In this document: positions 3,887-20,617 of the stretch, in pieces | Numbering within the stretch: position 1 is the stretch's first letter | Layout of the letters: each line of letters opens with the position of its first letter | IMG/VR virus record: IMGVR_UViG_3300042541_001013 | Span: 1-35,647 of that record | Direction: 5' to 3' (one strand) | DNA length: 35,647 nt | Source of the DNA: a virus | Translations under genes and position numbers: made by a program | Notes under the pieces: model-generated | What the model was told of the DNA's origin: nothing | Databases searched by the model: none | Seen by the model: the letters and a program-made list of their open reading frames with translations, nothing else

Positions 3887-5464
3887 ATGGTCAAGAACCC
3901 ATTCCCGCCAATCATCCTCGATCAGTACGCCCGGCCGATCAGCCGGCTGCAGTCGCGATCGCGCCGGGATCTTGGGGAAGTCTTTGCCAGCAATCTCAGT
4001 GAGCAGCATCGACGCCGGAAACTCGTCGCCAGTTATGACGCAGCTGGTTCATCGGACGAGTACAAAAACTACTGGGCTCCTGCTGATGCCCTAGACGCTG
4101 ACTCCGCTAATTCGCCGCAAGTTCGTGCGACTTTAGTGAAGCGATCACGCTACGATGTAGCCAACAACGGCTATTCGGACGGCATCGCGATGACCTACGC
4201 CACCGACTTGATCGGCCGCGCTCCTTCACTGCGAATGCAGACCGGATCTGAAGGCTTCAACCGTATGGTTGAACTCGCCTGGTGGAACTGGACCAAAGAG
4301 ATTCAGTTCCGTCGCAAGCTGTGGTGCATTGCACATGCCAAGCATCAGGACGGCGAAGGGTTTGGGGTTCTGCGCCGCAATTCCGGGCTGAAAAGCCGCG
4401 TCAAACTCGATTGGGTGCTGCACGAAACTGAGCAGTGTCAAACGCCCTATCTGCCGTACAATACTAAGGGCTACATCGACGGCATTCAGTTTGACGAATT
4501 TGGAAAACCAACGCTGTATGATTTTCTGGAGCATCATCCGGGATCAAATCTGACCGCTCAGAATCGTTTCATCAATCCTGAAAAGGTTGCGGCGAGGTTT
4601 GTAACACATTGGTTTAAACTCCGTCGCCCTGGGCAACATCGAGGAATCCCCGAATGTGCCTCAACGCTCAATCTCGGTGCGTCTGCCCGTCGATGGCGAG
4701 AAGCCACAGTTGCCGCAGCGGAGAACATTGCCGACTTCTCACTCTTCATCAAAACGCAGTTTGAGCCGGAAGAAATGGATTCCGTTTCTGCGATGTCCAC
4801 TCTGGACATTCAAAAACGGATGATGACCGCGCTGCCTGCTGGCTACGACGCATTTCAGCCGAAAGCGGAACAACCGACAGCAAATCATGCTGAGTTCTCA
4901 AAGTCGCTTGTGAATGAGCAGGCTCGCCCAAAGTCCATGCCGTACAACAAAGCGGCCTGTGATTCATCGTCCTACAACTATGCTTCAGGCCGGCTTGATC
5001 ACCAGACCTACTACGGCCATCTGGACAGCGATCGCCAGGACTGTGAGGACTGTGTTCTGGAGCCGATGTTTGCCGTGTGGTTTGACTATGCGGTGACGGC
5101 TTACAACTGGATTGGCGGAAATCCTGATGCAATCAGCGAAGGCGCAAAGACTCACGTTTGGGACTGGCCAAAGCACCAGGTTGCGGACATCGAAAGCGAA
5201 GCCAACGCAGCTGACAAGAAGCTGAAGAACGGTACTTCGTCAATCGCTTCAGAGCACATTGCCAGCGGCCTTGATCCAGAAGACGAACTGCAGAAGACGG
5301 CAGTATCAAACGGGATCACCGTTGAACAGCAAAGACAGATCAACATGCTGCTGAATCTTCCGCAGCACGTCATCCCGGTTGTGGCTCAGATCCTTGGGAT
5401 CACAAAGCCACCAGAGCCGGCAACGCCACCAACACAGCCGCAGGAGACTCCAGCCAATGGCTAA
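3887..5464 (+). CDS. Portal protein, lambda family
   Basis: The 525-residue protein would form the dodecameric DNA gate at one capsid vertex. The N-terminal half carries portal-type patterns: a run from RSRYDVANNGYSDG into MTYATDLIGR (about residues 84-110), then DGEGFGVLRR, and the later RPGQHRGIPECASTL (about 248-262). These are typical of lambda gpB relatives (Phage_portal_2). The C-terminus is Pro/Thr/Gln-rich (PPEPATPPTQPQ). The ATG at 3887 is the only start before an upstream in-frame stop, yet it has no visible ribosome binding site and follows the base of a hairpin directly. The 3' end overlaps the next gene by 8 bp. Confidence 0.9.
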   Translation: MVKNPFPPIILDQYARPISRLQSRSRRDLGEVFASNLSEQHRRRKLVASYDAAGSSDEYKNYWAPADALDADSANSPQVRATLVKRSRYDVANNGYSDGIAMTYATDLIGRAPSLRMQTGSEGFNRMVELAWWNWTKEIQFRRKLWCIAHAKHQDGEGFGVLRRNSGLKSRVKLDWVLHETEQCQTPYLPYNTKGYIDGIQFDEFGKPTLYDFLEHHPGSNLTAQNRFINPEKVAARFVTHWFKLRRPGQHRGIPECASTLNLGASARRWREATVAAAENIADFSLFIKTQFEPEEMDSVSAMSTLDIQKRMMTALPAGYDAFQPKAEQPTANHAEFSKSLVNEQARPKSMPYNKAACDSSSYNYASGRLDHQTYYGHLDSDRQDCEDCVLEPMFAVWFDYAVTAYNWIGGNPDAISEGAKTHVWDWPKHQVADIESEANAADKKLKNGTSSIASEHIASGLDPEDELQKTAVSNGITVEQQRQINMLLNLPQHVIPVVAQILGITKPPEPATPPTQPQETPANG

Positions 5465-7487
5465 GCACGCAATCGTTGGAATGTCCGCACCTGTCACAAT
5501 CCAAGCCGCAGAGGGCGACGCAGCAACAGGCCCAAAGGCATTCAGCAGCACGTTCTACACGGGCGGGGCGCTCAATATCGCAGGCTGGGACATGCCAGTT
5601 GTTGTTGATCTTGCCGGCCTTAAAGCAGGCAAAGTCCTAGTCGCAAATCTCGATCATGACGCAACGAAACGAGTTGGAAACTTTGATCTGGTCAACGATG
5701 GCAGCCAGCTCGTAGCAAATGGCAAGGCGACAGCCGCAACGGCAGCGCGTGACGAAGTCGTTAACTCGGCCGCCAACGGCTACCAGTGGCAGGCATCACT
5801 CGAAGTTGTGCCGCACAAGGTTGAGGAACTCGCCAAAGGCAAAACAGTGACCGTCAACGGTCAAGAAATCACAGGCCCCGCGTACATCACACGGACAGGC
5901 ACTTTAAAAGGTTTTGGTTTCGTTTCGCACGGTGCGGACGACAACACAACCGCAACGATCGCGGCATCTGCCGCTTCATCCGCAAAGGGAAGTACAATGG
6001 AACCAAAATTCAAAACGTGGGTCGAAGCGATGGGTTTCGACGCTGACAACCTCAACGCAGAACAGATTTCTGGCCTGCAGGCAAACTATGCTGGGCAGTC
6101 TGCGCCGGCAAAGAAAGTTGAAGCTGGGTTGACCGGCTTTGAAGCAAAGAAGGCGGAGCGATCCCGCGTTGATCAGATCACCGAGTACGCATTAAAAGCT
6201 TGCGACTCACAGCCGCACAACATCGACGCAATCAAGCAACTTACAGAGCAGGCTATCGAAGCAAAATGGGCTCTCGATAAGTTCCGCCTGGAGTTGCTTG
6301 AAGCCAGTGCGCCAGAACCATACCGCATCACCGGTCGTGGTGTCGAACGCATGACGAACAAGGTTTTGGAAGCTGCAATCTGCCAAGCTGCGAATGCACC
6401 AAACCTCGACAAGATGTTTGACGATCAGACGCTGCAGATTGCTCACGATCGATTCAAGAGCACAATCGGCCTGAATCAACTGATGCACATTGCCGCTGAA
6501 TCAAACGGGCATCGCGCGGGTGGTGGATCACAGATGAGCGTTGATGTCCAGCGGGCTGCGTTTGGAATGCAGTCGCAGGGAATGATGCGAGCAAGTGGAT
6601 TCTCCACAATCAGCATCAGCACAATCCTAAGCAACATTGCAAACAAGTTCCTGCGGGCTGGTTTTGATTCGGTCGACATGACGCCGATGCGAATTGCTGC
6701 CATCCGTAATGTTCGCGACTTCAAAACGATCACGACTACGTCTTTGATCGCTGACACGGAATTTGAAAAGGTTGGCCCGGACGGCGAGCTGAAGCATGGC
6801 ACGTTGTCAGAACTAACCTACACCAACAAGGCCGAAACCTACGGCCGCATGTTGGCGATCACTCGAACCGATTACATCAACGACGATCTGGGAGCAATCA
6901 CAGCCGTTCCGATGAAGCTTGGTCGTGGTGCCGGATTGAAGCTGAACAACATCTTCTGGACAAAGTTCCTGAACAACTCAGCGTTCTTCACCAGCGGACG
7001 GACCAACGTTAACACAGCAGTCGCTGACATGACCATCGGTGGCCTGCAGGCGACCGAAACAATCTTCATGGATCAGACCGATCCAAACGGAGATCCACTT
7101 GGAATGGAGGCGAGTATCTTGCTTGTGCCAACTCCGCTGAAGGTATCCGCGAACACTCTGATGAAATCTGAAAAGGTTGTCACCGGAGCAAGTTCCACGA
7201 TCGGTGAAGCAAATCCATACGCAGGCCGATTCCGCGTGGAAAGCTCACCATACATGAGCAACGCGAACTACACCGGATATTCAGCGGCAGCGTGGTACAT
7301 GATTGCTGACCCTGCTGTCCTGCCGGTAATCGAAATCGTTGCCTTGAACGGTCGCGTTGAGCCGACTGTTGAATCTGCGGATGCAGAGTTCAATACGCTT
7401 GGTGTCCAGATGCGTGGCTACTGCGACATCGGTGTCGAGCTGCAGGAATACCGCGGCGGCGTTCGAGCTGACGGCGGCGCAAGCTAA
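5457..7487 (+). CDS. Prohead protease/major capsid protein fusion
   Basis: This 676-residue protein has two parts. Residues 1 to about 175 resemble an HK97-type prohead protease, with a candidate catalytic His in NLDHD (H67) and Ser in YQWQASLE (S114). Residues about 180-330 are helical and scaffold-like. The rest has a major capsid pattern (FSTISISTILSNIANKFL, a later RNVRDFKTITTTSL, and a C-terminal QMRGYCDIGVELQ). Such protease-capsid fusions are a known phage arrangement. An in-frame ATG at 5997 with AAAGGGA upstream (5984-5990) may give separate capsid protein. The start ATG at 5457 overlaps the portal gene by 8 bp. Confidence 0.88.
   Translation: MAKHAIVGMSAPVTIQAAEGDAATGPKAFSSTFYTGGALNIAGWDMPVVVDLAGLKAGKVLVANLDHDATKRVGNFDLVNDGSQLVANGKATAATAARDEVVNSAANGYQWQASLEVVPHKVEELAKGKTVTVNGQEITGPAYITRTGTLKGFGFVSHGADDNTTATIAASAASSAKGSTMEPKFKTWVEAMGFDADNLNAEQISGLQANYAGQSAPAKKVEAGLTGFEAKKAERSRVDQITEYALKACDSQPHNIDAIKQLTEQAIEAKWALDKFRLELLEASAPEPYRITGRGVERMTNKVLEAAICQAANAPNLDKMFDDQTLQIAHDRFKSTIGLNQLMHIAAESNGHRAGGGSQMSVDVQRAAFGMQSQGMMRASGFSTISISTILSNIANKFLRAGFDSVDMTPMRIAAIRNVRDFKTITTTSLIADTEFEKVGPDGELKHGTLSELTYTNKAETYGRMLAITRTDYINDDLGAITAVPMKLGRGAGLKLNNIFWTKFLNNSAFFTSGRTNVNTAVADMTIGGLQATETIFMDQTDPNGDPLGMEASILLVPTPLKVSANTLMKSEKVVTGASSTIGEANPYAGRFRVESSPYMSNANYTGYSAAAWYMIADPAVLPVIEIVALNGRVEPTVESADAEFNTLGVQMRGYCDIGVELQEYRGGVRADGGAS
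5984..5999 (+). promoter_or_regulatory. Internal ribosome binding site and start in the capsid fusion
   Basis: AAAGGGA (5984-5990) sits 6 nt before an in-frame ATG (5997). Initiation here would yield a 496-residue scaffold/capsid protein without the protease domain. The site lies at the low-complexity junction (Ala/Ser-rich, SAASSAKGS) between the two domains, which is where a nested start would be expected. Confidence 0.5.
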
Positions 7488-7560: not shown

Positions 7561-7752
7561 ATGAAAATCCTAATGCTGCGAAACGCAGCCGCATCCTTTG
7601 GGTGCAAGCTGTCAGAAGGGCAAATAGGCGATGTCGATCAGTCGATTGCTCAAATCTTGATTGCTCGTGGAATTGCAGTTCCGGGAGAAATCAAGGCTGT
7701 TCCTGAAAAGACATCTGGCAAGCCATCCACAAAGCCATCGTCAGTAGAGTAA
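7561..7752 (+). CDS. Small protein between capsid and glycosyltransferase genes
   Basis: The 63-residue protein has a compact N-terminal part, with MLRNAAASFGCKLSEG followed by a hydrophobic helix (QSIAQILIARGIAV), and a Lys/Ser/Pro-rich C-terminus. Small proteins of this shape are common next to head genes, but I do not recognise the family. It lies 3 bp before the next gene and was probably transcribed with it after the terminator. Confidence 0.6.
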   Translation: MKILMLRNAAASFGCKLSEGQIGDVDQSIAQILIARGIAVPGEIKAVPEKTSGKPSTKPSSVE

Positions 7753-7755
7753 TCC

Positions 7756-9051
7756 ATGAGCGATTTCACACGACAGGGAAACGTATTTCTTGGAATGCCT
7801 GGCTACGGAAAGCAAACTGCAAGTGCAGGTCGCGGACTGTGGCGAGCGTGCCGTGATATGGATTCTGTTGCTGTGGAGTATCGCCAAGGCTCACTGTTGG
7901 CGGCAAACTTCAATGGCTTGTGGTGCTCGATGTTAAATCGACTACACAACGATGAAAGCATTCAGTATTTCGCAATGCTGCATGATGACATCGGGCCTTC
8001 TGATTTCTGGCTTGACGATTTGATTGAAGAACTCGAAGCGAGGCAGCTGGATGTGCTTGGCGTTGTAGTCCCAATCAAAGACATGAAGGGCATCACATCA
8101 ACGGCAATCGACGGCGGCGAAGCATGGCGGCCGAAGTGTCGATTGACCATGCACGAGGTTCTTGGACTGCCTGAAACATTCACCAGTGAAGATGTCGGTG
8201 GTCCGCTGCTGCTCAATACGGGGTGCTGGGTTGCAAAGATAGATCAGGAGTGGGCTCGCAAGGTACATTTCACGATCAACGACAGGATCGTTTTCAATTC
8301 GGCGACAAATCGATACGAATCACAAGTTGAGCCTGAAGACTGGTACTTTTCTCGATTGCTTCATGAGCAGCAATTGAAGATTGGGGCAACTCGGAAAATC
8401 AAAGTAAGTCACAGGGGTGAGCTGGACTTTTTGAACGACCGACAATGGGGCCAAAAGTTCGACGCACAAGCTGTTGAAGAAAGCCAATTGCCGGTTCCGT
8501 TTCCATCTGAAATTCCCGGCTGGCTTCATCCCGAAGAAGGTCGGGCGCTGGCTGACTTATCGAAAGGAAAGCGGGTTCTTGAAATCGGTAGCTACTGCGG
8601 AAAATCAACGGTCTGCATTGCTCGTGCGGCTTCGTCTGTGACCTGTGTTGATTACTTCGATGGGCGTGCGACACCAGAGCCGCAAAGCACATTTGAAACG
8701 TTTCAGGCGTCGTGCAAAAAGTACGGAGTGACGGACAAAATCACATTGTGCCATCCGGACGAAAGTATTCCGCAGCCCGGTTATGACTTAGTGTTCATTG
8801 ACGGAAATCACGACCGTGAGTTCGTGGAGGCTGATATTCAAAAGAGTCTCGCCGTTCTCAACGAAGGCGGGCTAATTGCGTTCCATGATTACCGACTAAA
8901 GCCAAATGAGTTCGATGCCGGATGGGATGAAGGCGTGACGCAGGCCGTTGATGCGTTCGTTTCAAGTGGTGCTGAAATCATTGCGCGTCACAAAACACTG
9001 GCCGTCGTTAGGCCACCTAGTTTCGTTTCACAACAAGTTCAAGGAGCTTAA
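7756..9051 (+). CDS. Two-domain glycosyltransferase-like/SAM methyltransferase protein
   Basis: Residues 1 to about 235 look like a GT-A glycosyltransferase. There is a strand ending in FAMLHDDIGPSDFW (72-85) with the metal-binding acidic pair, followed by a helix and VVVPIKD. Residues about 250-431 look like a class I SAM-dependent methyltransferase: motif I VLEIGSYCGKS (274-284), an acidic strand end CVDYFD, and DLVFIDGNHDREF, then LNEGGLIAFHDY (Methyltransf_24-like). The gene sits between capsid and decoration genes, not in a metabolic cluster, so a virion or host-surface glycan target is plausible. Donor, acceptor and activity are unknown. A methyltransferase fused to a glycosyltransferase would suit capping or trimming of a methylated sugar. 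Confidence 0.7.
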   Translation: MSDFTRQGNVFLGMPGYGKQTASAGRGLWRACRDMDSVAVEYRQGSLLAANFNGLWCSMLNRLHNDESIQYFAMLHDDIGPSDFWLDDLIEELEARQLDVLGVVVPIKDMKGITSTAIDGGEAWRPKCRLTMHEVLGLPETFTSEDVGGPLLLNTGCWVAKIDQEWARKVHFTINDRIVFNSATNRYESQVEPEDWYFSRLLHEQQLKIGATRKIKVSHRGELDFLNDRQWGQKFDAQAVEESQLPVPFPSEIPGWLHPEEGRALADLSKGKRVLEIGSYCGKSTVCIARAASSVTCVDYFDGRATPEPQSTFETFQASCKKYGVTDKITLCHPDESIPQPGYDLVFIDGNHDREFVEADIQKSLAVLNEGGLIAFHDYRLKPNEFDAGWDEGVTQAVDAFVSSGAEIIARHKTLAVVRPPSFVSQQVQGA

Positions 9052-9054
9052 TCA

Positions 9055-9405
9055 ATGCCACAGACGACATTCCGTAGCGGCGAGCCGCAGATGATTGACT
9101 ACACGCCAAGCGCAAACGTCACTGAAGGCGACGTTCTGCTGCTCGGCAATACAACCGGCCTGACATGCGGTGTCGCACATCATGCAATCACAAACGCTGT
9201 GCAGGGCGCGGTTGCGGCTGGCGGCGGGATCTATGACGTTGTCAATCTCAACAACGCTGCGGACTATGCGAAGGTATGGTGGGACGACTCCGCCAACAAA
9301 GTAACAACCACCAGCACAAATAACGCACTGTTCGGATTCATCGTGAGCGGTGGCGGTGGCGGCGCAAACACGACAGCGCAGGCACTGCACAAACCATATG
9401 TCTGA
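9055..9405 (+). CDS. Capsid decoration protein, DUF2190-type
   Basis: This 116-residue beta-rich protein is recognisable by order: VTEGDVLLLGNTTG near the N-terminus, then IANAV-like (ITNAVQGAVAAGGGIYDV), VWWDDSANKVTTT and a C-terminal Gly-rich LFGFIVSGGGGG. DUF2190 proteins are often found directly beside major capsid proteins and are thought to decorate or cement capsids. The gene follows the glycosyltransferase gene by 3 bp with AAGGAG upstream. A second protein of similar general shape lies at 19168-19575. Confidence 0.75.
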   Translation: MPQTTFRSGEPQMIDYTPSANVTEGDVLLLGNTTGLTCGVAHHAITNAVQGAVAAGGGIYDVVNLNNAADYAKVWWDDSANKVTTTSTNNALFGFIVSGGGGGANTTAQALHKPYV

Positions 9406-9443
9406 TTGTCGCTGATTTCTGACCACATCCCGGAGGCGTTCCA

Positions 9444-9662
9444 ATGGCTTATGAAGAGGAAACAATCGAATCGATTGAGGACGCTATTGAGTCGGTCGCT
9501 AAAGGAATGGTTAGCTCGTCCAGTGAAAATGGCCGGTCGATGTCGACTGTTCCAATCAAAGATCTGATTGAAGCTGATCGATATTTAAAAGGGAAGACAG
9601 CAGCCACTAAGCCGCACATGGGATTGCGATTTACAAAGTGCATCCCGCCAGGCGGTGGCTAA
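9444..9662 (+). CDS. Small head-completion type protein
   Basis: The 72-residue protein is helical (IESIEDAIESVAKGMVSSS) with a conserved-looking centre (PIKDLIEADRYLKGK) and C-terminal LRFTKCIPPGG. This pattern occurs in small proteins between decoration and connector genes of many siphophages; a gpW-like or head-completion role is inferred from that. CGGAGG precedes the ATG by 8 nt, and the stop shares one base with the next start. Confidence 0.5.
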   Translation: MAYEEETIESIEDAIESVAKGMVSSSSENGRSMSTVPIKDLIEADRYLKGKTAATKPHMGLRFTKCIPPGGG

Positions 9663-10051
9663 TGGCTTCTCGATTTGAACAGCGGTTCAATCAGTTTGCA
9701 ATTCCTCGACTGCAAAGAGAGTTTGCAACCGACGTCGATTTCATTCTGGATGATGACAGCGAACTCCGATTTCGGGCGTTTACAGACATTGACCAGATTC
9801 CATCCGGCGGTGAAGCCTTCACTGATGTTGATGGTCGCTTGACAGTGAAAACGGCAGACCTTGCTTCAAGGTCTGCTGAATTCACTGTGCTGACAAAGGC
9901 CAGAATCAGAGATCAGATCTACGACGTTTACGCACAGGCTCCGGATCATGCGGGCCTGACAGTTTTCAACATCCGTCGCAAGTTTAACGAGCAGGATCAG
10001 TCAAACCTGTTTGACCTGCGCGGCGATCAAATTCCATTTGCATCCGAATAA
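9662..10051 (+). CDS. Head-tail joining protein candidate
   Basis: The 129-residue protein starts at ATG 9662, which shares one base with the preceding stop (TAATG). It has an N-terminal helix (RFEQRFNQFAIPRLQREF) and then mostly beta structure, compatible with head-closure or tail-terminator connector proteins. Order in the operon (decoration, small head protein, this gene, tail tube candidate) supports a connector role. No catalytic features are present. Confidence 0.5.
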   Translation: MASRFEQRFNQFAIPRLQREFATDVDFILDDDSELRFRAFTDIDQIPSGGEAFTDVDGRLTVKTADLASRSAEFTVLTKARIRDQIYDVYAQAPDHAGLTVFNIRRKFNEQDQSNLFDLRGDQIPFASE

Positions 10052-10066
10052 CCGAAAGGCCATACA

Positions 10067-10483
10067 ATGCCCGCAGTCTCACACAAGACCCTGCTGACCG
10101 AACTGCAGATGACGATTTCAAACACCCTCACCGAGATTCCATTCCTCGACAACATTGAGCTGGATCCGGGTGAAAACAAGATTCACAACTTGATGGGCGT
10201 AAATCGAGCCTATGAAACTCCGATCGCAACTGGTGTGCGTGGCGTTGGCTCGCTCTCGGCCGACATCATCGCATACGACCCGACTGACGCCGTCCATATC
10301 GCTCTCGGAGTTGCGTTCGACGCACAGACGACTATCACTGGTGCTTACAAGCTGGCCAACTCTGGCGAGACGATCAGCGTGAAATACATCGTCACGAAGA
10401 TGCCAATCAGCACAAAGGGCGCAGCAGTCATCGAAAGCAAGTTTGAGGCTGTGATCACCGAAAAGATTGCAATGCCTACCTGA
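10067..10483 (+). CDS. Major tail (tube) protein candidate
   Basis: This 138-residue protein has alternating strands (GSLSADIIAYDPTDAVHIAL, later TISVKYIVTKMPI) ending in a strand pair (AAVIESKFEAVITEK). Size, beta content and position between connector genes and the tape-measure chaperones fit a tail-tube protein. The sequence is not close to a family I can name, so the call rests largely on gene order. Confidence 0.45.
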   Translation: MPAVSHKTLLTELQMTISNTLTEIPFLDNIELDPGENKIHNLMGVNRAYETPIATGVRGVGSLSADIIAYDPTDAVHIALGVAFDAQTTITGAYKLANSGETISVKYIVTKMPISTKGAAVIESKFEAVITEKIAMPT

Positions 10484-10500
10484 TAGGCTGAGAGGCTCCA

Positions 10501-10944
10501 ATGAAGTGCATTCGAACAGTACCGGGACGGGCCATCAATCCTCTGTTTTCACGCGACGAAAAAAACCGCGTGGAAGCGGCGGGCGATATGTACGACTCGC
10601 TTGAGTTTCTAGACTTACCCGTTGGGCAGGTGGTCGACAATCCAGACGCATGGAAGTTGTGCGTTCTGGGGAAGGCACTGCCGGAAGACGAGGCGTGCAG
10701 AAAACGAGTCATGGCCTACCTCACTGCCCCAAAGCGTGAGGCAATCGTCGCAGACATTAAGCTGCTGCGAGAGGCATCGAAAACGAACTCGCTCGGCGAA
10801 AAGGATAAGCGAATGTTGGCCATGATGGAGCGGGCCTACGCGGTTGATCTGGGTTTGGTGCCTTCACCACTGACCACAACAGTGACGGCACCAATTCAGC
10901 CAGCAGAGCCGAAGATTGCAGACGTCGCTGATGGTGATTTGTGA
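10501..10944 (+). CDS. Unrecognised tail-module protein
   Basis: The 147-residue protein has an ordered N-terminal region (SLEFLDLPVGQVVDNPDAW), a Lys/Arg-rich helical middle (about residues 60-110) and a Pro/Ala-rich end. No family is recognised. It lies between the tail tube candidate and the gp10-like gene and overlaps the latter by 4 bp (GTGA), so co-translation is likely. Confidence 0.6.
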   Translation: MKCIRTVPGRAINPLFSRDEKNRVEAAGDMYDSLEFLDLPVGQVVDNPDAWKLCVLGKALPEDEACRKRVMAYLTAPKREAIVADIKLLREASKTNSLGEKDKRMLAMMERAYAVDLGLVPSPLTTTVTAPIQPAEPKIADVADGDL

Positions 10945-11237
10945 CGCTCACTGAATTCATTAATCGGCTGGAAAAGCGAGTTTCGGAAGCAGTAGCGGAA
11001 GAGGCTCGGCTGATTGCCTCCGAGATTCGCAGCAAGACACCAGCAACACGAAAAAAAACGCGACAAGCCATCAAATCAAGATCACAAGGAACGCGGGCAG
11101 CGGTTGGAATTTATTTTGCCCAACGATACGCCGGAAACGACACCACAACTCACGAAAACTTCAAACGACACTGGCGAGAGATCAGGCCCATCGCAAAGCA
11201 GCGACTGATTGCCAGGCTTCAACAAATCCTGAACTGA
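10941..11237 (+). CDS. Tail-completion protein candidate (HK97 gp10-like)
   Basis: The 98-residue basic protein starts at GTG 10941. It has an N-terminal helix (TEFINRLEKRVSEAVAEEAR) followed by SEIRSKTP, a pattern typical of HK97 gp10-like tail proteins that begin with a helix and then an R-x-x-x-P turn. The C-terminus ends in a helix (KQRLIARLQQIL). Location just before the tail chaperone gene fits. Assignment is by pattern and order only. Confidence 0.45.
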   Translation: MTLTEFINRLEKRVSEAVAEEARLIASEIRSKTPATRKKTRQAIKSRSQGTRAAVGIYFAQRYAGNDTTTHENFKRHWREIRPIAKQRLIARLQQILN

Positions 11238-11247
11238 AAGACCATTG

Positions 11248-11616
11248 ATGTCCTCCGATTTTTTGACGACTGAAAACTGCGAGCAGGAAACAGCCTGCTC
11301 AATTGAGGAATTCCCATTGCCTCACAAGCCGTCAATGCGTGCGAGAGTCAAGCAACTGCCGATTGGTGAACTAAAGCGACTGGCGAAAGCCATTCAGTCG
11401 CCAGTGCAGTTTGACCGCGACAAAGCAGAGATTGAGATGATTCAAAAGTCAATTGTCAACGCTGACGGCACGATCGTTTTCAGTGATGAAAAGCTTGCGT
11501 CCCTGAAGACAGGCAACGCTCCTCTGTACGCATCACTCGTGACAATCATTGGCAAGGCCAACAACAAGAGCCAGGAGCAAGTAGACGCACAGCTGGACGC
11601 AGCGGAAAAAAACTAA
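11248..11616 (+). CDS. Tail assembly chaperone, short form (gpG-like)
   Basis: This 122-residue acidic-basic helical protein lies directly before the tape-measure gene, where lambda gpG-type chaperones sit. It begins MSSDFLTTENCEQ (ATG 11248; a TTG three bases upstream is possible) and contains a helical stretch SMRARVKQLPIGELKRL. Its 3' end carries the heptamer A AAA AAC (11607-11613) just before the TAA, which permits a -1 shift into the frame ending at 11942. The short form would wrap the tape measure during tail assembly. Confidence 0.75.
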   Translation: MSSDFLTTENCEQETACSIEEFPLPHKPSMRARVKQLPIGELKRLAKAIQSPVQFDRDKAEIEMIQKSIVNADGTIVFSDEKLASLKTGNAPLYASLVTIIGKANNKSQEQVDAQLDAAEKN

Positions 11617-11942
11617 AAGCCGATTCCACGCGGCAAATGCTCTTTGAGCTTTGTCTGTGCGGGGTCGGTGGAAACTCATCATCGCATCCGGACCATCTGG
11701 AAAACAGACTGACAAAAACGCAGATTATTGAGTGGGCAGCGTTTTATCGAATCAGGCCATTTGGCAGTAAGCGAGACGACCTGAGGGCAGCGGTGGCAAC
11801 GTACTGGAGTGTTTCGGCGGCGATATCCGAGGCACCTCCGGACCACACACCACAAAAGTACATGCTACGGTTCAACGACGCTCCACCGCTGAACGAAGCG
11901 GAGGAGATCATGCAGCGAATTCGCGAACGAATGTCGAGGTAA
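11248..11942 (+). CDS. Tail assembly chaperone, -1 frameshift long form (gpGT-like)
   Basis: Join of 11248-11613 with 11613-11942. Ribosomes slipping -1 on A AAA AAC (11607-11613) read on as CTA AAA GCC and continue without a stop to the TAG-free frame end at 11942, giving about 231 residues. The extension has a helical pattern (TKTQIIEWAAFYRIRPFG, then DDLRAAVATYW) and its own frame has no good ribosome binding site, so it is best explained as a frameshift product. A small GCCG/CGGC hairpin (11619-11634) begins 5 nt after the heptamer. The arrangement matches lambda G/GT, a well established system. Confidence 0.85.
11607..11634 (+). promoter_or_regulatory. Programmed -1 ribosomal frameshift site
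   Basis: The heptamer A AAA AAC (11607-11613) is in the zero frame of the chaperone gene as GAA AAA AAC, directly followed by TAA. A hairpin GCCG (11619-11622) / CGGC (11631-11634) follows after a 5-nt spacer, the usual distance for a stimulatory structure, although its stem is short. Confidence 0.85.
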
Positions 11943-11945
11943 AAC

Positions 11946-14606
11946 ATGGCCGGCGGTAATCTCGACGATCTGGAATTCAAACTCGATATCGATCTACAGA
12001 AGTCGCTCAGCGGACTTCGGATGACCGTCGTATCTCTTGACGCAGTAAAAACCTCAATCATTGCGGTAGACCCTGCGGCGCGGCGACTGGCCGCAAGCGT
12101 CAGGGACATCGACTTTAAGAATTTAGGGAGCAGCTCAGCAAAACTTTATTCGGTCGCCAGCGCAGCCGAAGGGACCGCCGAAGCATTAGACAAAGTCTCC
12201 ACAGCGGCGCACGCCGTCGAGTCCGGAATTACGTCGATTGCATTTTCGGCAGACACTGCGTCACGAGCATCCAGCAACCTGACGAAAGTATTAAACACGG
12301 TCGCCGGTGAAGCAAGACTGGTAAGCACGGCAGCGACTGGGGCGGGGTCCGTGCTGCGGCAGATGTCCGGCGCAATCATGCACATCGCGCACAACATCCA
12401 TGCTGTGATGATCGTGACTGACCTGTTGACAACAGCCTTCGCGATGCTGATGGTCCCAGTCAGAGCCGTGTGGTCGGTTGCTGTCGCTGCATTTAACGCA
12501 CTGACAATGGTTGTCAGTGCTGTGCTGCTGCCGGTCAAGCTTCTCGTGATGGGTTTCGTCGGGCTCGCAAAGGCAGCATGGTCTATTGTCAGTCCGTTGC
12601 TGTCCCTCTCGCTGTCGGTGGCGAAAGTCTGGTTCGTGTTTCGCGGATGGATTGGGGCCATCAAAGTCATCGGCACATGGCTTGCCATGCTACCACCGCC
12701 GATTCGGCTGGTTGTCGGCGGCCTGCTGGCGTTGGGTGTCGCAGGGAAAGCGGGAGCCGGTGCGCTGAAAGTTTTATCATTCGGGCTGTCGCTGGTTTCG
12801 ACTGCGGTTGGAGTTGCTGCGACTGCGATCAGGGTCTTGACGCTGCCGATTCTAGTGCTGTTAAATCCGGTGCGAGCTGCTTCGATTGCGATTTCACTGA
12901 TGACGAGCGCGTTAATGCTTGCCGGTCGCGTTGCTGTCATGACCGCATCGGCTCTTTACTCGGTTGCCGCAGCTGCTGGGGCGATGGCGGCCAGAGGATT
13001 TGCGGCCGCGGCAAGTTCCGTAACTGGGATGCTTGGTTCACTGGTTCGACTGACAAGCCAGGTCGCGATATATGGGGCGATCGCGGCGGTTGTGTTCGGG
13101 GCCAAGGTTGCCATTGCGGTTGAAAAGAATATCGCAGTGTTCGGCACGATGGTGCATTCAATGGAGCAAGGGGCAGCAATTGTCGCTTCCATCCAGAAGA
13201 CCAAAGCGGCCGGACTGTTCGACAATCAGGAATTGCTGGATTCCTCACGACTGCTGTTCAAGGGTGGCGTGGCCGCTGTTGACCTCGCGGCGAAGACGGA
13301 CCAGTTGGCGAAGATTGCGGCCGGTACGAGCACCGAGCTTGGCGACCTTGCACGCATCTACCAGCAGGGAGCGAATCGCGGATCGTTCGGTCAGGACAAA
13401 ATCAACCAGCTTTCAGAGCGTGGTATTGCGATTTATGAGGGGCTGCAGCACGCAACCGGAAAGAGCGGCGCGGCACTCGACAAGATGATCAGTGACGGAA
13501 AGATCGGCATCACTGAGATGGACGCCGCAATGACGTATTTGACAGAAGGCAACGGTTACTACGCGAACTCGCTGGAAGACATCGGCAACACAACCGGTGG
13601 GATGCTGACGCAGATTAAAAACAACCTAATGCAGACGCTTGGAGCACTGGGCGGAGTTGGCACGGAAGCATTTAAACCGGTCCTCACCAGTATTCTTGCA
13701 ATGAGCGAAGGCATCAAATCCTCGGTTGCCGCCATTGCCCCGATCGTCAATCAGTTGTTTATGGTCATCAAAGGCGCGTTTGGCGGGATGGCTGCGATCG
13801 TCAACACCGCCTACACGAACGTCTTCGCAGCAACCACGGCCACGTTTGGAGGAATGCTTTCCGTTGTTATGGAATGGGTCACGAAGTTCCGGTGGTTCTT
13901 TGAAAATATCGTTCCGATCATCCAGTTTGTTGGGCTGTCGATGGTGTCGATCATGGTGACTGCATTCAACGACATCGCCTATTTCCTCACCGACAAAATG
14001 CCTGCCTACCTGTCATGGTTTGCGGAGAACTGGAAAAACATCTTCACCGACATCTTCAACGGGACAGTCGCCATCTTCACGAATCTCGGGAAGAACATCG
14101 CAATGGCGATGACCCAGATTTGGAACTTCATCACCAGCGGCGGCACGGCTGAACTGGAATTTGCATGGACGCCTTTGCTTGATGGATTCGAAAGCACTGT
14201 CGCAGCCCTACCTGACATACCCGATCGGGCGATGACGGAACTTGAGCAGTCACTCGAACAGCAGACACAAGCCGTGGCAACTCAACTGGCCGACTCCTTT
14301 GATGCACTAAACGTGGAAGCACAGGCCGCACTGACGGTGGCAGCTCCGGAGCTTCCAGCCATCGACCCAACTCTGCAGGCTGGCGGCACTGGAGACGGAA
14401 CCGACACGGGAGCAGGCAAAAATAACCGCACAGACTTTTCCGTCTCAGGCATGGAGCGTGGAAGCGAGGCGGCATTGAAAGCAATCTTCAGCGCTCAGAA
14501 AGATAAGACACCTTCGCAGGCTCTGGCCGAGCATAAGAAAACAAATGCTCATCTTGCCACTATCGCAAACAAGCCGCAGCCAGCAGTATTGGGAGGAGTG
14601 ACTTAA
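11946..14606 (+). CDS. Tape measure protein
   Basis: The 886-residue protein sets tail length and is the longest product here. The N-terminal third is helical and Ala/Ser-rich, followed by a very hydrophobic zone with several membrane-like segments (about residues 140-400), as is common for tape measures. A tape-measure core follows: VFGTMVHSMEQGAAIV, then LFKGGVAAVDL, LGDLARIYQQGANRG, then a long helical tail. The C-terminal part is Ala/Pro/Gly-rich. ATG 11946 lies 3 bp after the frameshift extension stop, and the final TAA shares one base with the next start. Confidence 0.88.
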   Translation: MAGGNLDDLEFKLDIDLQKSLSGLRMTVVSLDAVKTSIIAVDPAARRLAASVRDIDFKNLGSSSAKLYSVASAAEGTAEALDKVSTAAHAVESGITSIAFSADTASRASSNLTKVLNTVAGEARLVSTAATGAGSVLRQMSGAIMHIAHNIHAVMIVTDLLTTAFAMLMVPVRAVWSVAVAAFNALTMVVSAVLLPVKLLVMGFVGLAKAAWSIVSPLLSLSLSVAKVWFVFRGWIGAIKVIGTWLAMLPPPIRLVVGGLLALGVAGKAGAGALKVLSFGLSLVSTAVGVAATAIRVLTLPILVLLNPVRAASIAISLMTSALMLAGRVAVMTASALYSVAAAAGAMAARGFAAAASSVTGMLGSLVRLTSQVAIYGAIAAVVFGAKVAIAVEKNIAVFGTMVHSMEQGAAIVASIQKTKAAGLFDNQELLDSSRLLFKGGVAAVDLAAKTDQLAKIAAGTSTELGDLARIYQQGANRGSFGQDKINQLSERGIAIYEGLQHATGKSGAALDKMISDGKIGITEMDAAMTYLTEGNGYYANSLEDIGNTTGGMLTQIKNNLMQTLGALGGVGTEAFKPVLTSILAMSEGIKSSVAAIAPIVNQLFMVIKGAFGGMAAIVNTAYTNVFAATTATFGGMLSVVMEWVTKFRWFFENIVPIIQFVGLSMVSIMVTAFNDIAYFLTDKMPAYLSWFAENWKNIFTDIFNGTVAIFTNLGKNIAMAMTQIWNFITSGGTAELEFAWTPLLDGFESTVAALPDIPDRAMTELEQSLEQQTQAVATQLADSFDALNVEAQAALTVAAPELPAIDPTLQAGGTGDGTDTGAGKNNRTDFSVSGMERGSEAALKAIFSAQKDKTPSQALAEHKKTNAHLATIANKPQPAVLGGVT

Positions 14607-15589
14607 TGGCAGCAACTGCAATTCGATACGACCTGACAAGGTGGTCTGAAAAGATCGCGAAGGGCGTTTTCAGCGCGACAATGGAATGGACGTTGACGTG
14701 TACGATTTCCGCCAACGTGGCCGACATGGCACCGTCGCAGATCGCTGGCCTGTTTGCGTGGCTTCCAGTCGAGGGCACAGCGTACGGCGATTACAATCCG
14801 CTCTGGCCGTATACCAGTTGCCGAAGTGTTGCGTGCGACCAAATCGAGGGCGGAATTTATAAGTACGTCACGGAGTGGTCAGACGAAAACGCGAAGCAAA
14901 ACGAAGACAGCCAGGACTCAAAAGCCACTGACGAAAACCCGATCAATGATTTGCCGATAATCAAGCCAGTCGGAGGAATGCGAGAGCGGGCAATTACCAA
15001 AGACCGAAACGACGAAGCCATTCTCAACAAGGCTGGCGACCCTGTCATTCAAAGCGTTGAAGACAACACAATTAACATCGCCGTCACCTGCAATGTGGCG
15101 GTCGATTCTGGTGTCGAAGCTCTGGTGGTAGCACTGCGAAACCGCGTTAACATCGCCCCAATCAGATGCGGCCGGTGGTACATCGACACTAACATGGCTC
15201 GCGTGATTTTTGAATCAGGATTCCTCAGCGAAGTGAAGCGCCGAAACGATACGGAGTATCTGGAGTTCAGCTTTTTAATCTCCGTCGATGAACGCGATTA
15301 CCATCGCGGGACATCGCTAAACGCAGGGTTCAGGCAAAAGGTCTGGACGACATCGGGCGGCACTCCAATTGCTCCGGCATCAGATCCAAACCCTCTGTCA
15401 GACATCTACACCGTCACGACAATCCTAAGCGATGATGGCAGTGAACCGTCTGAGCCAGTTCCGCTTGATGACTTCGGCCGCGAGATCGTAAGACCTCAGC
15501 CAGATGAAGTGCTGTACCTCGACACTGACAAATATCAGGAAGGCGACTTCACGCAACTTCCCGGAGTCTTCGCATGGGCGGGGCCATAA
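14606..15589 (+). CDS. Distal tail protein candidate
   Basis: The 327-residue protein is mostly beta strands (FSATMEWTLTCTISANVADM near the N-terminus; ARVIFESGFLSEVKRR, then YLEFSFLISVDERDYH in the middle) and has an acidic-Pro-rich C-terminus. It shares a base with the tape-measure stop, and that position is the usual place of a distal tail or tail-hub protein. I do not recognise the family, so the functional name is from gene order. Confidence 0.5.
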   Translation: MAATAIRYDLTRWSEKIAKGVFSATMEWTLTCTISANVADMAPSQIAGLFAWLPVEGTAYGDYNPLWPYTSCRSVACDQIEGGIYKYVTEWSDENAKQNEDSQDSKATDENPINDLPIIKPVGGMRERAITKDRNDEAILNKAGDPVIQSVEDNTINIAVTCNVAVDSGVEALVVALRNRVNIAPIRCGRWYIDTNMARVIFESGFLSEVKRRNDTEYLEFSFLISVDERDYHRGTSLNAGFRQKVWTTSGGTPIAPASDPNPLSDIYTVTTILSDDGSEPSEPVPLDDFGREIVRPQPDEVLYLDTDKYQEGDFTQLPGVFAWAGP

Positions 15590-15590
15590 C

Positions 15591-15983
15591 ATGAGCGGCG
15601 GAATGATCGGCCCAGAATACGATGGCCAAATCCGGCAGACGATTATTGCCGTTCGCAGCATGGGCCGCACGTCCAGTGAGATGGATCTGACGGCAGAGCA
15701 GCGGTCTGCTAGTCGGTTCGGAAACAAACAGGCAGTCCTGTTGGATGACTTGGTTGCTGCGGTCAACACAAAGCGAGATCCTTCAACCGCAAGAGCCGCC
15801 GTGCTTCGTCGCAAAGCAAACGGAGACTTGACGAAGACGACCCTGATTCTGACAGTGGTGAATCGATTCACGCAAATTTCAGTGGACGCCGGGACATACA
15901 TCAAGATCGAGCACATCGACGGCGAATGGCAACCGTACGCGGCTGATTGTCCGGGCGGCTCAGCATCGTCAGGGGGTGCGTAA
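15591..15983 (+). CDS. Unrecognised tail-module protein
   Basis: A 130-residue protein starting at ATG 15591, two bases from the previous stop. The N-terminus (GPEYDGQIRQTIIAVRS) and a charged middle with a strand pair (KTTLILTVVNRFTQISV) lead to a Gly/Ser-rich end. No motif of known function is present. Tight spacing on both sides (the stop shares one base with the next start) places it in the late tail operon. Confidence 0.6.
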   Translation: MSGGMIGPEYDGQIRQTIIAVRSMGRTSSEMDLTAEQRSASRFGNKQAVLLDDLVAAVNTKRDPSTARAAVLRRKANGDLTKTTLILTVVNRFTQISVDAGTYIKIEHIDGEWQPYAADCPGGSASSGGA

Positions 15984-16666
15984 TGTTGCTTGGATGCTGC
16001 CATTGCGGTCAGACGCCGCCTCCACCGAGTGAGTCAGTGCCGCCGAGTGAGTCAGTGCCAAGCGTCAGTGAGTCAGCACCGAGCATAATGGGAGAGAGAT
16101 GGGATTGCTCAGCCTGCACTATTTTGCCAGTGAGATGGCGCGTCACCGGCATTGAACGATCGAAATACACATTTAGCAGCCCAAGCGGATTTCCTTCACC
16201 GTGGGTTGATTGCCCCAGTATGTTCGGGCCGCTCGATCTGACTTTTGATGTTCAGTTCCCGCAGCCGGGGTCCCCAAATTCAAGCACGCAGTGTCAAACG
16301 TGGGTTTCGGCTGAAAAAATAATCAACTCCACGAGAGATAAATGTTCACCGCCTCCATGTGCAGCATGGGCTCCATCGTGTCAACAAGCACTATTCACAG
16401 GCAGTGTGACGAAGCCGCGAGCAACCCTGACACTATCTAGGGGGAGTTTTTTAGGAAGGCAGCCGATTTGGCGTTTTGTGTGGTCCTACGCATATCAAGA
16501 TGCGGCAGCCAACGCTGTTGAGAGAACACTAATATGGACAGGAACAACCACGGTTGGTGTTGATGGTGATTGCGTTAAGCCACTTGTCCTGGCCGGCGGT
16601 GGTGACAGCTCCTTAAATAATGCCTACTTAGGTGCCGCATACTATATAACATTAACGCCGAGTTGA
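15983..16666 (+). CDS. Cys-rich protein with Pro/Ser/Glu repeat linker
   Basis: The 227-residue protein has ATG 15983 with AGGGGGTG upstream. It begins MLLGCCHCGQTPPPP and then carries an imperfect repeat (PPSESV, PPSESV, PSVSES) encoded by a repeated CCGAGTGAGTCAGTG unit (about 16026-16080). After that comes a beta-type domain with several cysteines (CSACT, CQTW, CSPPPC), likely disulphide or metal bonded. I have seen similar short Cys then Ser/Glu repeat heads in planctomycete phage proteins, but this is memory of a pattern, not a search. It is a likely tail-tip or surface protein; no function can be given. Confidence 0.55.
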   Translation: MLLGCCHCGQTPPPPSESVPPSESVPSVSESAPSIMGERWDCSACTILPVRWRVTGIERSKYTFSSPSGFPSPWVDCPSMFGPLDLTFDVQFPQPGSPNSSTQCQTWVSAEKIINSTRDKCSPPPCAAWAPSCQQALFTGSVTKPRATLTLSRGSFLGRQPIWRFVWSYAYQDAAANAVERTLIWTGTTTVGVDGDCVKPLVLAGGGDSSLNNAYLGAAYYITLTPS

Positions 16667-16669
16667 AAA

Positions 16670-17746
16670 ATGAGAGATTGTATTTACAACACTTTTACCG
16701 ATGGAGTCATTGTCGCGTGCAGCAACGACACTGATTTATTACATACAGGGACCGTACCAGCATCCATATGCCTTAACTGCCGGTACGCTAAGTCTGCGAA
16801 GACTGGTGATTTTTTCGCTCAGACATCGGCCCTGCTAGTAAAGAAACACCGCACAGGCGAACTTCGAGCCAATCCCCAGCCATGCGGCGGATGCGGCGAA
16901 ACGAAGCATCGGGCACCAGATGCTCCAGCGATGCAATTCGTCTGGCCGTATTGGGACGGCGGTGCGCAGGCGGATGAACTTCGATGGTCTATCAGATCAG
17001 TTGAAACGTTCTTTCAAGGCAAGGCAAAAATAACAATCATCGGTGATCGTCCGGACTGGTATCACGGGCATGTGATCATTAAAAAGAGAGTCCCGCACAC
17101 GAAGCCGAATCGAGCGTTTCGCGACATGCTTGGCAAGGTCTTTTATATCGCAACACATGCGGAGATTGATTCTGAGTGCGTGTGGATGATGGACGACATT
17201 TATTTCCTCAAGCCGTTCACACTGGACCACATCAAGACGCCTCGCGCGGAGCCGTGGCGACCTGACGAAAGCAACAGTTGGCAGAAGCGTAAAACGGCGT
17301 CGATGGAAGCACTGGCGGCTCGTGGATTAACTCAACACGACTACGCTACGCATCTTCCGCACTGGCTGGAGAAAGACAAACTGCGGGCGATGTTCGACGA
17401 CTTCAATTTGCACGAGCATACCATGTTGTGGGAGGTATTGTACGGCAATGTTTATCGAGGCACTCCGCAACGCACGCGGCCATTCTTCGCACGGTTTCAG
17501 CATCAGGCAGACAAAGAAACATTCCAGCGACTGACCGCACGCGCGACCGTCATCAATAACACTGAGCCCGCTTGGTGTGACGGGCTGCACGACTTCCTCG
17601 CGGAACTGCTCCCAACTCCTTCCAGCGTAGAGGCGGAACATGAGGCGGCAAAGCCTGTTTATGTGATCACGAAGAAAGGGCCAAGGACCGTAAAGCGGCG
17701 GCCCTTGGAAACGCACAGAGACTTCATCGAGAAGCAAGTCCAATGA
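16670..17746 (+). CDS. Glycosyltransferase-like protein (Stealth CR2-like)
   Basis: The 358-residue protein has four cysteines in two pairs near the N-terminus (CLNC 34-37, CGGC 72-75), which may bind zinc. A GT-A-like region follows: FVWPYWDGGAQADELRWSIR (90-109), ITIIGDRPDW (121-130), the segment RAFRDMLGKVFYI (148-160) and CVWMMDDIYFL (170-180) with the acidic metal-binding pair. The order W...DELRWSIRS...DD resembles the Stealth CR2 region of sugar-phosphate transferases. It is embedded in the tail operon, 4 bp after the preceding stop, and overlaps the next glycosyltransferase gene by 4 bp (ATGA). The acceptor is unknown; a virion protein or the host envelope are both possible. Confidence 0.65.
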   Translation: MRDCIYNTFTDGVIVACSNDTDLLHTGTVPASICLNCRYAKSAKTGDFFAQTSALLVKKHRTGELRANPQPCGGCGETKHRAPDAPAMQFVWPYWDGGAQADELRWSIRSVETFFQGKAKITIIGDRPDWYHGHVIIKKRVPHTKPNRAFRDMLGKVFYIATHAEIDSECVWMMDDIYFLKPFTLDHIKTPRAEPWRPDESNSWQKRKTASMEALAARGLTQHDYATHLPHWLEKDKLRAMFDDFNLHEHTMLWEVLYGNVYRGTPQRTRPFFARFQHQADKETFQRLTARATVINNTEPAWCDGLHDFLAELLPTPSSVEAEHEAAKPVYVITKKGPRTVKRRPLETHRDFIEKQVQ

Positions 17747-19149
17747 TTCCCCACATTATGATCATTCAGTCGGCCTACACCGATCCACGATTGTCAGAGC
17801 GACGCCTGGAGATCTCGCGACACACGTCCATTCCATCGCTGGCATTTCAGACCGTTAAGCCCGTGATTCATATTGCGGTCAATCCTGACGATCCGTTTTT
17901 GAATGAGCGACTTGACGCATTCCGGTCGACGGGTTGCGAAGTGAAAGCACTTCACCGACCGAACTGGAAACTCTACCGCGAGAACTGGGAGCTTCCAGAG
18001 GGGCGGAAGATTGTCAGCCGAATGGACGATGACGACGTGATCTGCAAAGAGTATTGCCAGCGGACACGCGAAGCTGCCCCGGAGTCAGGCGAGTGGAATC
18101 TAATTTGGCCGAACGGGTACGTTTTTTGGCGTGAGACGTGCTACCTACTGCACCATCCAGGAATTCAGTTCGTAACGCTGGTCACAGATCACGACAAAGA
18201 TCCACATCAGGAACAGCACTGGGGATACCACAAGCGATGGCAGACGAAGGTTGTCTCCAACGCGGTCGGCTGGATCTGGGTTCGTCATGGCGACGCAGCA
18301 TCATCAACACTTCCGAGGTATCGCAGAGTCAAGCAAGGTGGCATTGATGCAAAGCGGATTCCGATCAACCTGAGAGCAATCCTGCGAGCAATTGCGGACT
18401 CCGGGACAGCAAGCGGAAACTACACCGAACACCGCAACCCGGCACTGCTCAACCATGTACTACAGCAAAACAAACGGCACGCACCGACATTGCCAGCAGG
18501 TCCGCGTTTTCTTGTGGTCGTCCCAACGCATCGGCTCGCGGTGGCTCAGGCGACAATCGACGAGCTTCAAATGTCCTTCACCTATCCGACAGAGTTCCAC
18601 ATTCTGGACGGCACGCCCTCGAAATGTCACGCCCTTAACAAGGCCCTGGCTGAACTGCTCGATCCCGCGAAGCATGACATCTACGTAACGATCGACGACG
18701 ACATTCTTCTAGGGGAAAACTGGCAGCACTTCATTGCGTGTGCCTTTGATCGCATACCGAAGCTGGGAGCGTGCGGAGTGGACTACAGCGGAACCGAAGA
18801 AGGCCGGACGCTTATGTCAAACGCAATGAATTCACCAGTGCGGCAGGTTCGCGACATCCAGTTTCGCGACGCCACGGGTTTCATGAATCTTGCGGGCGGA
18901 TGTTTCGCAATCAGGCCCGCACTAGCCAAAGAGATCGGCCCATATCCTTTCGCAGACGATGGCAGACAATACCACCTCGACGAGGACGGATGGCGCTCGC
19001 ATCAGGTGACTCGTCGCAAATGGCAGGTCGGTTACGTCACCAATCCCAATGAGCCCGTCAGGATGATCACGCACCAGAACACAGAACAGTATGTAGAGAC
19101 AAAGGCTGCTGATGTCGCAGCATGGCAGGCAAATCCAATCTGGCCCTAA
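17743..19149 (+). CDS. Two-domain glycosyltransferase
   Basis: The 468-residue protein carries two GT-A-like modules. The first has IVSRMDDDDVI (90-100), as in putative rhamnosyltransferases. The second starts with FLVVVPTHRLAVAQATIDEL (256-275) and has YVTIDDDILLGENW (314-327), a GT2 family pattern. Later it carries HLDEDGW and EPVRMITHQNTEQY near the C-terminus, which may be the catalytic end. Two acidic motifs suggest two transfer steps on one chain. It overlaps the gene before it by 4 bp (17743-17746), so both are probably translated together. Confidence 0.75.
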   Translation: MIPHIMIIQSAYTDPRLSERRLEISRHTSIPSLAFQTVKPVIHIAVNPDDPFLNERLDAFRSTGCEVKALHRPNWKLYRENWELPEGRKIVSRMDDDDVICKEYCQRTREAAPESGEWNLIWPNGYVFWRETCYLLHHPGIQFVTLVTDHDKDPHQEQHWGYHKRWQTKVVSNAVGWIWVRHGDAASSTLPRYRRVKQGGIDAKRIPINLRAILRAIADSGTASGNYTEHRNPALLNHVLQQNKRHAPTLPAGPRFLVVVPTHRLAVAQATIDELQMSFTYPTEFHILDGTPSKCHALNKALAELLDPAKHDIYVTIDDDILLGENWQHFIACAFDRIPKLGACGVDYSGTEEGRTLMSNAMNSPVRQVRDIQFRDATGFMNLAGGCFAIRPALAKEIGPYPFADDGRQYHLDEDGWRSHQVTRRKWQVGYVTNPNEPVRMITHQNTEQYVETKAADVAAWQANPIWP

Positions 19150-19167: not shown

Positions 19168-19575
19168 ATGGCAGTTTTGACAATCACCGCAGCAAGCGTA
19201 GCACCCGGAACGGGATCCAAAACGAAAAGCGGCACCGCAGGCGCAGCAATCACGCAAGGGCAGCCGGTTTATCTTGACGCAACAGCGATAACCATATTCC
19301 CAGCCGATGCTGACGTGCTCGCATCTGCGGCGGTTGTCGGAGTCGCACTCAATGCCGCATCAACGGGGCAGCCCGTCACTTACCAGACCTCCGGGCCAAT
19401 CACGATCGGGGCCACGGTCACTGTCGGAACGGCCTATTACGCCTCGACAACAGCTGGCGGCGTGTGTCTTGAGTCTGACTTAGTCACCGGAGACTTCGCC
19501 ACGTTTCTAGGCTTCGCGACATCAACCACCGTGATCGCTCTTGACATCAAAGCGGCTGGAGTTGCAAAGGCTTAG
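19168..19575 (+). CDS. Virion surface/decoration-like beta protein
   Basis: The 135-residue protein is Thr/Ala/Gly-rich with repeated short strands (GQPVYLDATAITIFPADADV, then VTYQTSGPITIGATVTVG and TTAGGVCLESDLVTG). It looks like a DUF2190-like or similar decoration protein, and its position after the glycosyltransferase genes makes it a candidate acceptor. AAAGGA precedes the ATG. It is the last gene before the convergent terminator. No enzymatic features. Confidence 0.5.
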   Translation: MAVLTITAASVAPGTGSKTKSGTAGAAITQGQPVYLDATAITIFPADADVLASAAVVGVALNAASTGQPVTYQTSGPITIGATVTVGTAYYASTTAGGVCLESDLVTGDFATFLGFATSTTVIALDIKAAGVAKA

Positions 19576-19593: not shown

Positions 19594-19676
19594 TGCTGAC
19601 CAGCAGCGGATAAAAAGCGAAGGTCAGCAGCGAAGCAATGGGAGACACCGCGGAGCTACCTCGCGGTGTCGCTTCG
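19594..19676. terminator. Bidirectional hairpin terminator region between convergent operons
   Basis: Two hairpins lie between the ends of the plus-strand tail operon and the minus-strand cassette. Hairpin one is TGCTGACC (19594-19601) / GGTCAGCA (19622-19629). Hairpin two has a 9-bp GACACCGCG / CGCGGTGTC stem ending at 19670, extended by CGAAGC (19631-19636) / GCTTCG (19671-19676). Neither has a long T run, so Rho-independent function is likely but not certain. Confidence 0.55.
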
Positions 19677-19677
19677 T

Positions 19678-19970: not shown

Positions 19971-19976
19971 GCAACA

Positions 19977-20005: not shown

Positions 20006-20006
20006 A

Positions 20007-20613: not shown

Positions 20614-20617
20614 AACG

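Follow-up and report, generated by a model that had tools for sequence, protein, structure and literature searches.

Glycosyltransferase genes set among the virion genes of an uncultivated phage suggest glycosylation of its own particle

A virus contig of 35,647 nucleotides (nt; IMG/VR record IMGVR_UViG_3300042541_001013, here called the window and analysed over its full length) carries three genes for predicted sugar- or sugar-phosphate-transferring enzymes, named by their first nucleotide as 7756, 16670 and 17743, within its head and tail operon. The domains, gene order, conservation and co-occurrence of these genes made it likely that their products glycosylate some virion protein, and probable, with less assurance, that a cement protein (9055) and a protein with a Ser/Pro-rich linker (15983–16666) are the main targets. 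From the same observations we infer late expression, catalysis, donor sugars, acceptors, the order of steps and a benefit by shielding or altered adsorption.

The first-pass annotation had read 7756 as a GT-A glycosyltransferase (GT) ending in an S-adenosylmethionine methyltransferase (MTase), and both domains were recovered. Residues ~5–223 took a GT-A fold in an AlphaFold model (mean predicted local distance difference test, pLDDT, 90.7), which VIA-align matched at Z 16.7 each to the LH3 GT-like domain and to STIV A197; these are alike in fold but share 12–17% identity, and the donor and acceptor of 7756 are not deducible from them. The GT-A landmarks are DxD, a G-loop glycine, xED and a C-terminal histidine (PMC7185993). 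All four, as assigned by reading the sequence, were present in 7756, with D78, G156, E194-D195 and H219 invariant in 30 relatives and D77 nearly so. Residues 242–424 matched Methyltransf_24 (PF13578; E 1.4e-16, 61.7 bits, cut-off 26.3). The closest solved relative of this C domain, by profile as well as by structure (Z 21.1 over 179 residues), was MeT1, a mannoside 1-O-methyltransferase (PMC9883506), followed in structure by antibiotic-sugar O-methyltransferases such as SpnH and MycF. By family match and fold the C domain is placed with the Methyltransf_24/MeT1-type sugar O-methyltransferases, and sugar methylation is predicted.

The MTase domain was optional, since the GT domain stood alone in 11 of the 38 loci first found, some of which kept the same last residues. 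When 294 Planctomycetota genomes were searched with the 7756 profile, 40 genomes matched, all via the MTase domain; the GT domain had no match, and a genome scan with the GT alignment gave no confirmed relative. Sequence comparison thus suggests a phage-specific GT joined to an MTase domain shared with hosts. Coordinates and frames of 7756, 16670 and 17743 were checked and found correct, and none of the three proteins had transmembrane-like segments. The ratio of nonsynonymous to synonymous substitution rates was ~0.03–0.06 for 7756 and 17743, a sign of strong purifying selection, which indicates genes kept by selection rather than motifs arising by chance. An unrelated phage (L036, 9593–13282) also had a distant 7756 relative, located after its tape measure gene between two similar 125-residue proteins and followed by a GT4 gene.

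Gene 7756 lies between the gene for a protease–major capsid protein (MCP) fusion and the cement protein gene 9055 (cement1). The order MCP, GT, cement1 was found in 32 loci (L numbers below), in a sample drawn through 7756 itself. Because such a sample is biased towards the GT, linkage was also sampled through the MCP and, separately, through the cement protein. In both samples the GT followed the cement1 subtype: it was in the locus for 37 of the 40 unique cement homologues at least 46% identical to 9055, and for none of the 55 below 46%. Similarity of the MCP was not predictive. L103 and L104, with MCPs 79–80% and cement proteins 34–36% identical, had no GT; L137 and L160, with MCPs only 39–42% and cement proteins 73–74% identical, had one. 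GT-linked cement proteins carried N47 (36/37), an S-T-N loop (S87-T88-N89; 35/37) and, mostly, an inserted Thr-containing loop (T37), features not found in GT-free ones. The close cement homologues without a GT (L330, L332 and L350) had A, A and L at position 47 and ATA, ATT and SAG at positions 87–89, respectively, and grouped together with L133 in the cement tree (support 75/76). This co-occurrence points to the 9055 cement protein as the likely acceptor for 7756.

Other virion proteins were considered as acceptors. At first pass each of the three genes had been placed next to a decoration-like or surface protein, and the products of both 9055 and 19168 (cement2) matched Phage_cement_2. As an acceptor cement2 was unsupported: it occurred without the 16670–17743 pair in L005 and L024, and in relatives the pair mostly had no adjoining cement2. 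The C-terminal ADGGAS tail of the MCP was rejected as a GT-specific acceptor, being conserved equally in relatives with and without the GT. A broader alternative is that the glycans are placed on the C-termini of the MCP and tail tube instead, the cement and linker associations then reflecting nothing but linkage and shared descent. Mycobacteriophage capsid and tail-tube subunit C-termini bear glycans, as reported in PMC12619734; the GT gene lies just as near to that of the MCP, GT distances correlate with MCP distances, and in L024 the GT is located in the tail-tube region. However, neither the MCP tail nor overall MCP similarity tracked GT presence, and we regard this alternative as unlikely.

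The second cassette was sampled through gene 15504, giving 37 distinct contigs with enough downstream sequence. Gene 16670 was present in 36 of them and the N domain of 17743 in 34. Between 15504 and the 16670–17743 pair lay a tail-end protein, which in most contigs began with a constant Cys-rich stretch (MLLGCCHCG or similar), followed by a linker and a variable C-terminal domain. The linker contained 30% Ser and 16% Pro, versus 9% and 7% in the rest of the protein (33 unique homologues). In the pair-free loci L005 and L024, other proteins lacking a Ser/Pro linker were found at that place, and L024 had a GT4 gene instead of the pair. By co-occurrence, the Ser/Pro-linker protein is the likely acceptor for the pair.

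Two GT domains were assigned to 17743. The C half scored above the Pfam cut-off (Glyco_tranf_2_3, 29.3 bits, cut-off 27), and a PDB sequence search with it gave nothing useful. The N half itself was a weak match below the cut-off (Rhamno_transf, E 3.7e-4), the family being clear in its relatives (45.6 bits in L252 and 25.3 bits in L312, cut-off 23). The C domain was present in 21 of the 34 contigs having the N domain; in several contigs without it, the N domain was fused instead to a Methyltransf_24 domain, for which 3ssm and demethylmacrocin O-methyltransferase 8ia9 were the nearest PDB relatives. A GT and a sugar-type O-methyltransferase are thus joined at both sites.

The call of 16670 as a further GT-A enzyme, made from its WMMDD motif, was not supported, because its profile found only N-acetylglucosamine-1-phosphotransferase (GNPTAB) in the PDB and its homologues matched Stealth_CR2. 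The protein had no Pfam match of its own, and its AlphaFold model was of low confidence (pLDDT 45). The GNPTAB matches obtained with the profile of its relatives were weak (E 0.06 and 0.23) and collinear through CR2 and CR3. Homologues, including those of Mycobacterium phage Boilgate and Gordonia phage BrutonGaster, matched Stealth_CR2 at E ~1e-5, below the cut-off (25.7, 25.3 and 16.3 bits versus 39.4). The M-D-D of 16670 aligned with N-D-D of GNPTAB, both Asp being kept in all relatives; the CR2 metal-binding Asp (CpsY D324) was thus present and the Asn (CpsY N322) replaced by Met. The Arg of GNPTAB HMPHMIDR aligned with Lys or Arg in the 16670 family, a candidate counterpart of CpsY R419. 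The Stealth CR1 motif is IDVVYTF or very similar (PMC10668966); at its place 16670 has QFVWPYW, only loosely similar. The CR4 tetrapeptide CLND/CIND was absent from 16670, which has just an invariant Asn, N296 in VINNTEP. Since several landmarks are changed, 16670 was called Stealth-like and not filed as a Stealth protein; from the alignments it is probably a remote relative of GNPTAB/CpsY type, a related but different transferase rather than another ordinary GT. Among the 294 Planctomycetota genomes, one had a match to the Stealth-like profile. Six invariant cysteines (C4, C17, C34, C37, C72 and C75) were seen in the N-terminal segment of 16670 (16670–16900), which is more variable than the rest of the protein and possibly a metal-binding module.

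The setting of these genes among virion genes, also claimed at first pass, was confirmed: the operon encodes terminase, portal, the protease–MCP fusion, cement, tail proteins and a tape measure (features around the three genes in Table 1). In sequenced genomes, relatives of the protease–MCP fusion were mostly in metagenome-assembled genomes of Planctomycetota, some of them on contigs 0.1 to 3.6 Mb long, which makes a planctomycete the probable host. Elsewhere in the window a CsrA-family regulator (24118–24384, PF02599, E 5.3e-22) and a papain-family cysteine protease (31171–31998, Peptidase_C1, E 2.5e-5) were encoded, and a large protein running off the contig end (34084–35647) contained a Laminin_G_3 (concanavalin A-like) domain (E 1.6e-23).

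Table 1. Genes and domains of the two predicted glycosylation cassettes and their neighbours (window coordinates)
Feature	Position	Strand	Evidence
Protease–MCP fusion, upstream neighbour of the 7756 GT	5457..7487	+	Phage_capsid_4 E 9.8e-33; phrog_4523 major head and protease E 1.7e-57
Conserved short gene separating those of MCP and GT; stop 3 nt before GT start	7561..7752	+	Open reading frame (ORF), synteny
GT-A glycosyltransferase domain of 7756, residues ~1–245	7756..8490	+	AlphaFold, structural matches, invariant residues
Sugar-type O-methyltransferase domain of 7756, residues ~246–431	8491..9051	+	Methyltransf_24; MeT1 best match by profile and structure
Cement protein 1, likely acceptor of 7756	9055..9405	+	Phage_cement_2 E 1e-11, 45.6 bits, cut-off 24
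Tail-region gene (15504 ORF, likely start near 15591), Ser/Gly-rich C-terminal tail	15591..15983	+	Conserved C-terminal half
Tail-end protein, variable and Cys-rich, beginning MLLGCCHCG and containing a Ser/Pro-rich linker; likely acceptor of 16670/17743	15983..16666	+	
Stealth-like sugar or sugar-phosphate transferase, Cys-rich N-terminal segment	16670..17746	+	GNPTAB sole PDB profile match; Stealth_CR2 in homologues
First GT domain of 17743 (Rhamno_transf-like)	17743..18477	+	Pfam, alignment
Second GT domain of 17743 (GT2-like)	18478..19149	+	Glyco_tranf_2_3 above cut-off
Cement protein 2, neighbour of the pair in the window	19168..19575	+	Phage_cement_2 E 1.7e-5, 25.6 bits, cut-off 24

We propose that soluble enzymes of the structural operon would glycosylate the phage's own particle. 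The GT of 7756 would use a nucleotide-sugar donor to glycosylate the 9055 cement protein, or to elongate a sugar already on it, and the C-terminal domain would O-methylate the added sugar as a cap. A second glycan would be made by 16670 and 17743, with the Ser/Pro-rich linker of the 15983–16666 protein as its most likely site: 16670 would attach a sugar, or possibly a sugar-1-phosphate, and both GT domains of 17743 would then lengthen the glycan. A bolder version, which we think quite unlikely, is that the Stealth-like enzyme puts a phosphate-linked sugar on serines of the hypervariable, mucin-like linker, to be extended by 17743 or, in relatives, methylated. A phosphoglycan would then be displayed on the phage tail end, a virion modification not found in the literature searched.

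Several points weigh against the proposal. The N47/S-T-N signature of cement1 may be a single evolutionary event by its place in the tree, where one gain or loss explains all of it, and so counts as one contrast and not as proof. Among GT-bearing loci, GT distances tracked those of cement1 and of the MCP to a similar degree (partial r 0.66 and 0.59), and this mirror-distance test therefore does not decide the acceptor. The linker contrast comes from only two pair-free loci, several Stealth landmarks are altered in 16670, and in most phages sharing this MCP the slot next to it holds no glycan enzyme. Both acceptor assignments are made from co-occurrence, and adjacent genes are often co-inherited even when their products do not interact. 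The virus itself is known from an uncultivated contig alone. The first-pass idea of building and methyl-capping a glycan on the virion stood as the best-supported explanation, with Corndog and Che8 as precedents; of its suggested targets, 9055 stayed the likely acceptor of 7756, 19168 was unsupported and the MCP was not singled out.

Modification of host surface glycans during infection, for superinfection exclusion or receptor masking, was also considered. The GT and O-methyltransferase domains resemble polysaccharide-modifying enzymes, and relatives of the MTase domain occur in Planctomycetota genomes, once (L398) beside a gene that looked GT-B-like by inspection. On the other side, the proteins lack transmembrane segments, no flippase or Gtr-type partner was seen in the window, and the genes sit in the structural operon, tied to specific virion genes; the explanation is disfavoured and distinctly improbable. 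The 16670–17743 pair might instead be mobile cargo whose role has nothing to do with the virion, as it was found in phages with unrelated capsid genes and was absent from the otherwise similar L005. Its position after the same tail-region gene beside the Ser/Pro-linker protein (36/37 contigs) is closer than one would predict for free cargo, which leaves this very unlikely. Glycosylation of modified bases in the phage DNA, likewise disfavoured, is hardly credible: DNA-glycosylating GTs are phage-encoded elsewhere and a DNA methylase is predicted near 22599, but no base hydroxylase or hydroxymethylase was recognised in the window, and the genes are placed with structural and not replication genes.

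If glycosylation of the virion with these targets is correct, such modification would not be peculiar to mycobacteriophages and would recur in phages of another phylum. The enzyme would travel with its likely acceptor, which could therefore be tested with recombinant cement1 and linker protein although the phage is uncultured. For glycosylating proteins in the cytoplasm, a compact GT–methyltransferase fusion that works on a folded capsid protein would be a useful tool as well.

Unrelated GT or MTase genes were found beside cement or early head genes in L132 (with the methyltransferase–GT order reversed), L138–L140, L146 and L151. The MCP-adjacent slot as a usual home of glycan enzymes was rejected, since among 81 other cargo families only a few had matches to GT or MTase models. 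In L128 (3500–4150) a DNA methylase gene (N6_N4_Mtase) fills the GT slot between the MCP and a close cement1 homologue, which has neither N47 nor S-T-N. Directly 3′ of the cement gene of L151 (2150–5706) are five genes, two of them MTase-like by Pfam (one clear, one weak) and one weakly nucleotide-sugar-transferase-like, the others appearing GT- and sulfotransferase-like by eye only. A Methyltransf_24 gene (L138, 12447–13064) and a Gly_transf_sug/Capsule_synth gene (L139, 8553–10289) adjoin cement genes in phages without the 7756 GT, and a GT2-like gene, a weak radical-SAM-like gene and one further gene are inserted in the head–tail region of L146 (13647–16250). In L167, a prophage-like locus from Planctomycetota, a single protein encoded close to the tail end (19641–21209) combines a sulfotransferase domain (E 1.8e-13) with a weak Glyco_transf_25 region.

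Among known systems, mycobacteriophage Corndog (cluster O) is close in layout. Between its portal and protease genes lie an O-methyltransferase (gp35), two glycosyltransferases (gp36 and gp37) and an N-acetylglucosaminyltransferase (gp38), for which capsid modification was proposed by the authors (PMC4351075). Both phages thus have GT and O-methyltransferase genes within the structural operon; in Corndog these are separate genes, whereas here a GT–methyltransferase fusion lies between the MCP and cement, and unlike Corndog there is an additional Stealth-like gene at the tail end. Glycans on the major capsid proteins of Che8 and Rita are reported in PMC11256854, citing Freeman et al. 2023. The Che8 glycosyltransferase Q855A2 was a structural match of 7756 in BFVD (E 3.2e-9), which by model comparison is a shared fold and no more. 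Che8 and Rita have actinobacterial hosts and no detectable sequence homology to the genes here. In tblastn against 50,697 phage records, 17743 had no match and 7756 one weak match, in the methyltransferase region only, so that no homology in sequence to the Corndog or Che8 cassettes was seen; a DNA search of phage records gave no match. In the related F1 phage Maravista the GT genes are near the 3′ genome end, unlike the placement here. MeT1 of Mycolicibacterium hassiacum (PDB 6g7d, 6g80), the best match of the 7756 C domain, is a 1-O-methyltransferase for methylmannose polysaccharides, a stand-alone cellular enzyme with ~22% identity to that domain. To the Stealth sugar-1-phosphate transferases GNPTAB and CpsY, 16670 has a collinear weak profile likeness, with several landmark residues different. 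By analogy, decoration of the virion with methyl-capped glycans, as suggested here, would resemble the Corndog cassette and the Che8 capsid glycans. A virion-glycosylation cassette as such is therefore already known; the novelty lies in fusing GT to methyltransferase, in the siting next to cement proteins, in having a Stealth-like member and in the host group.

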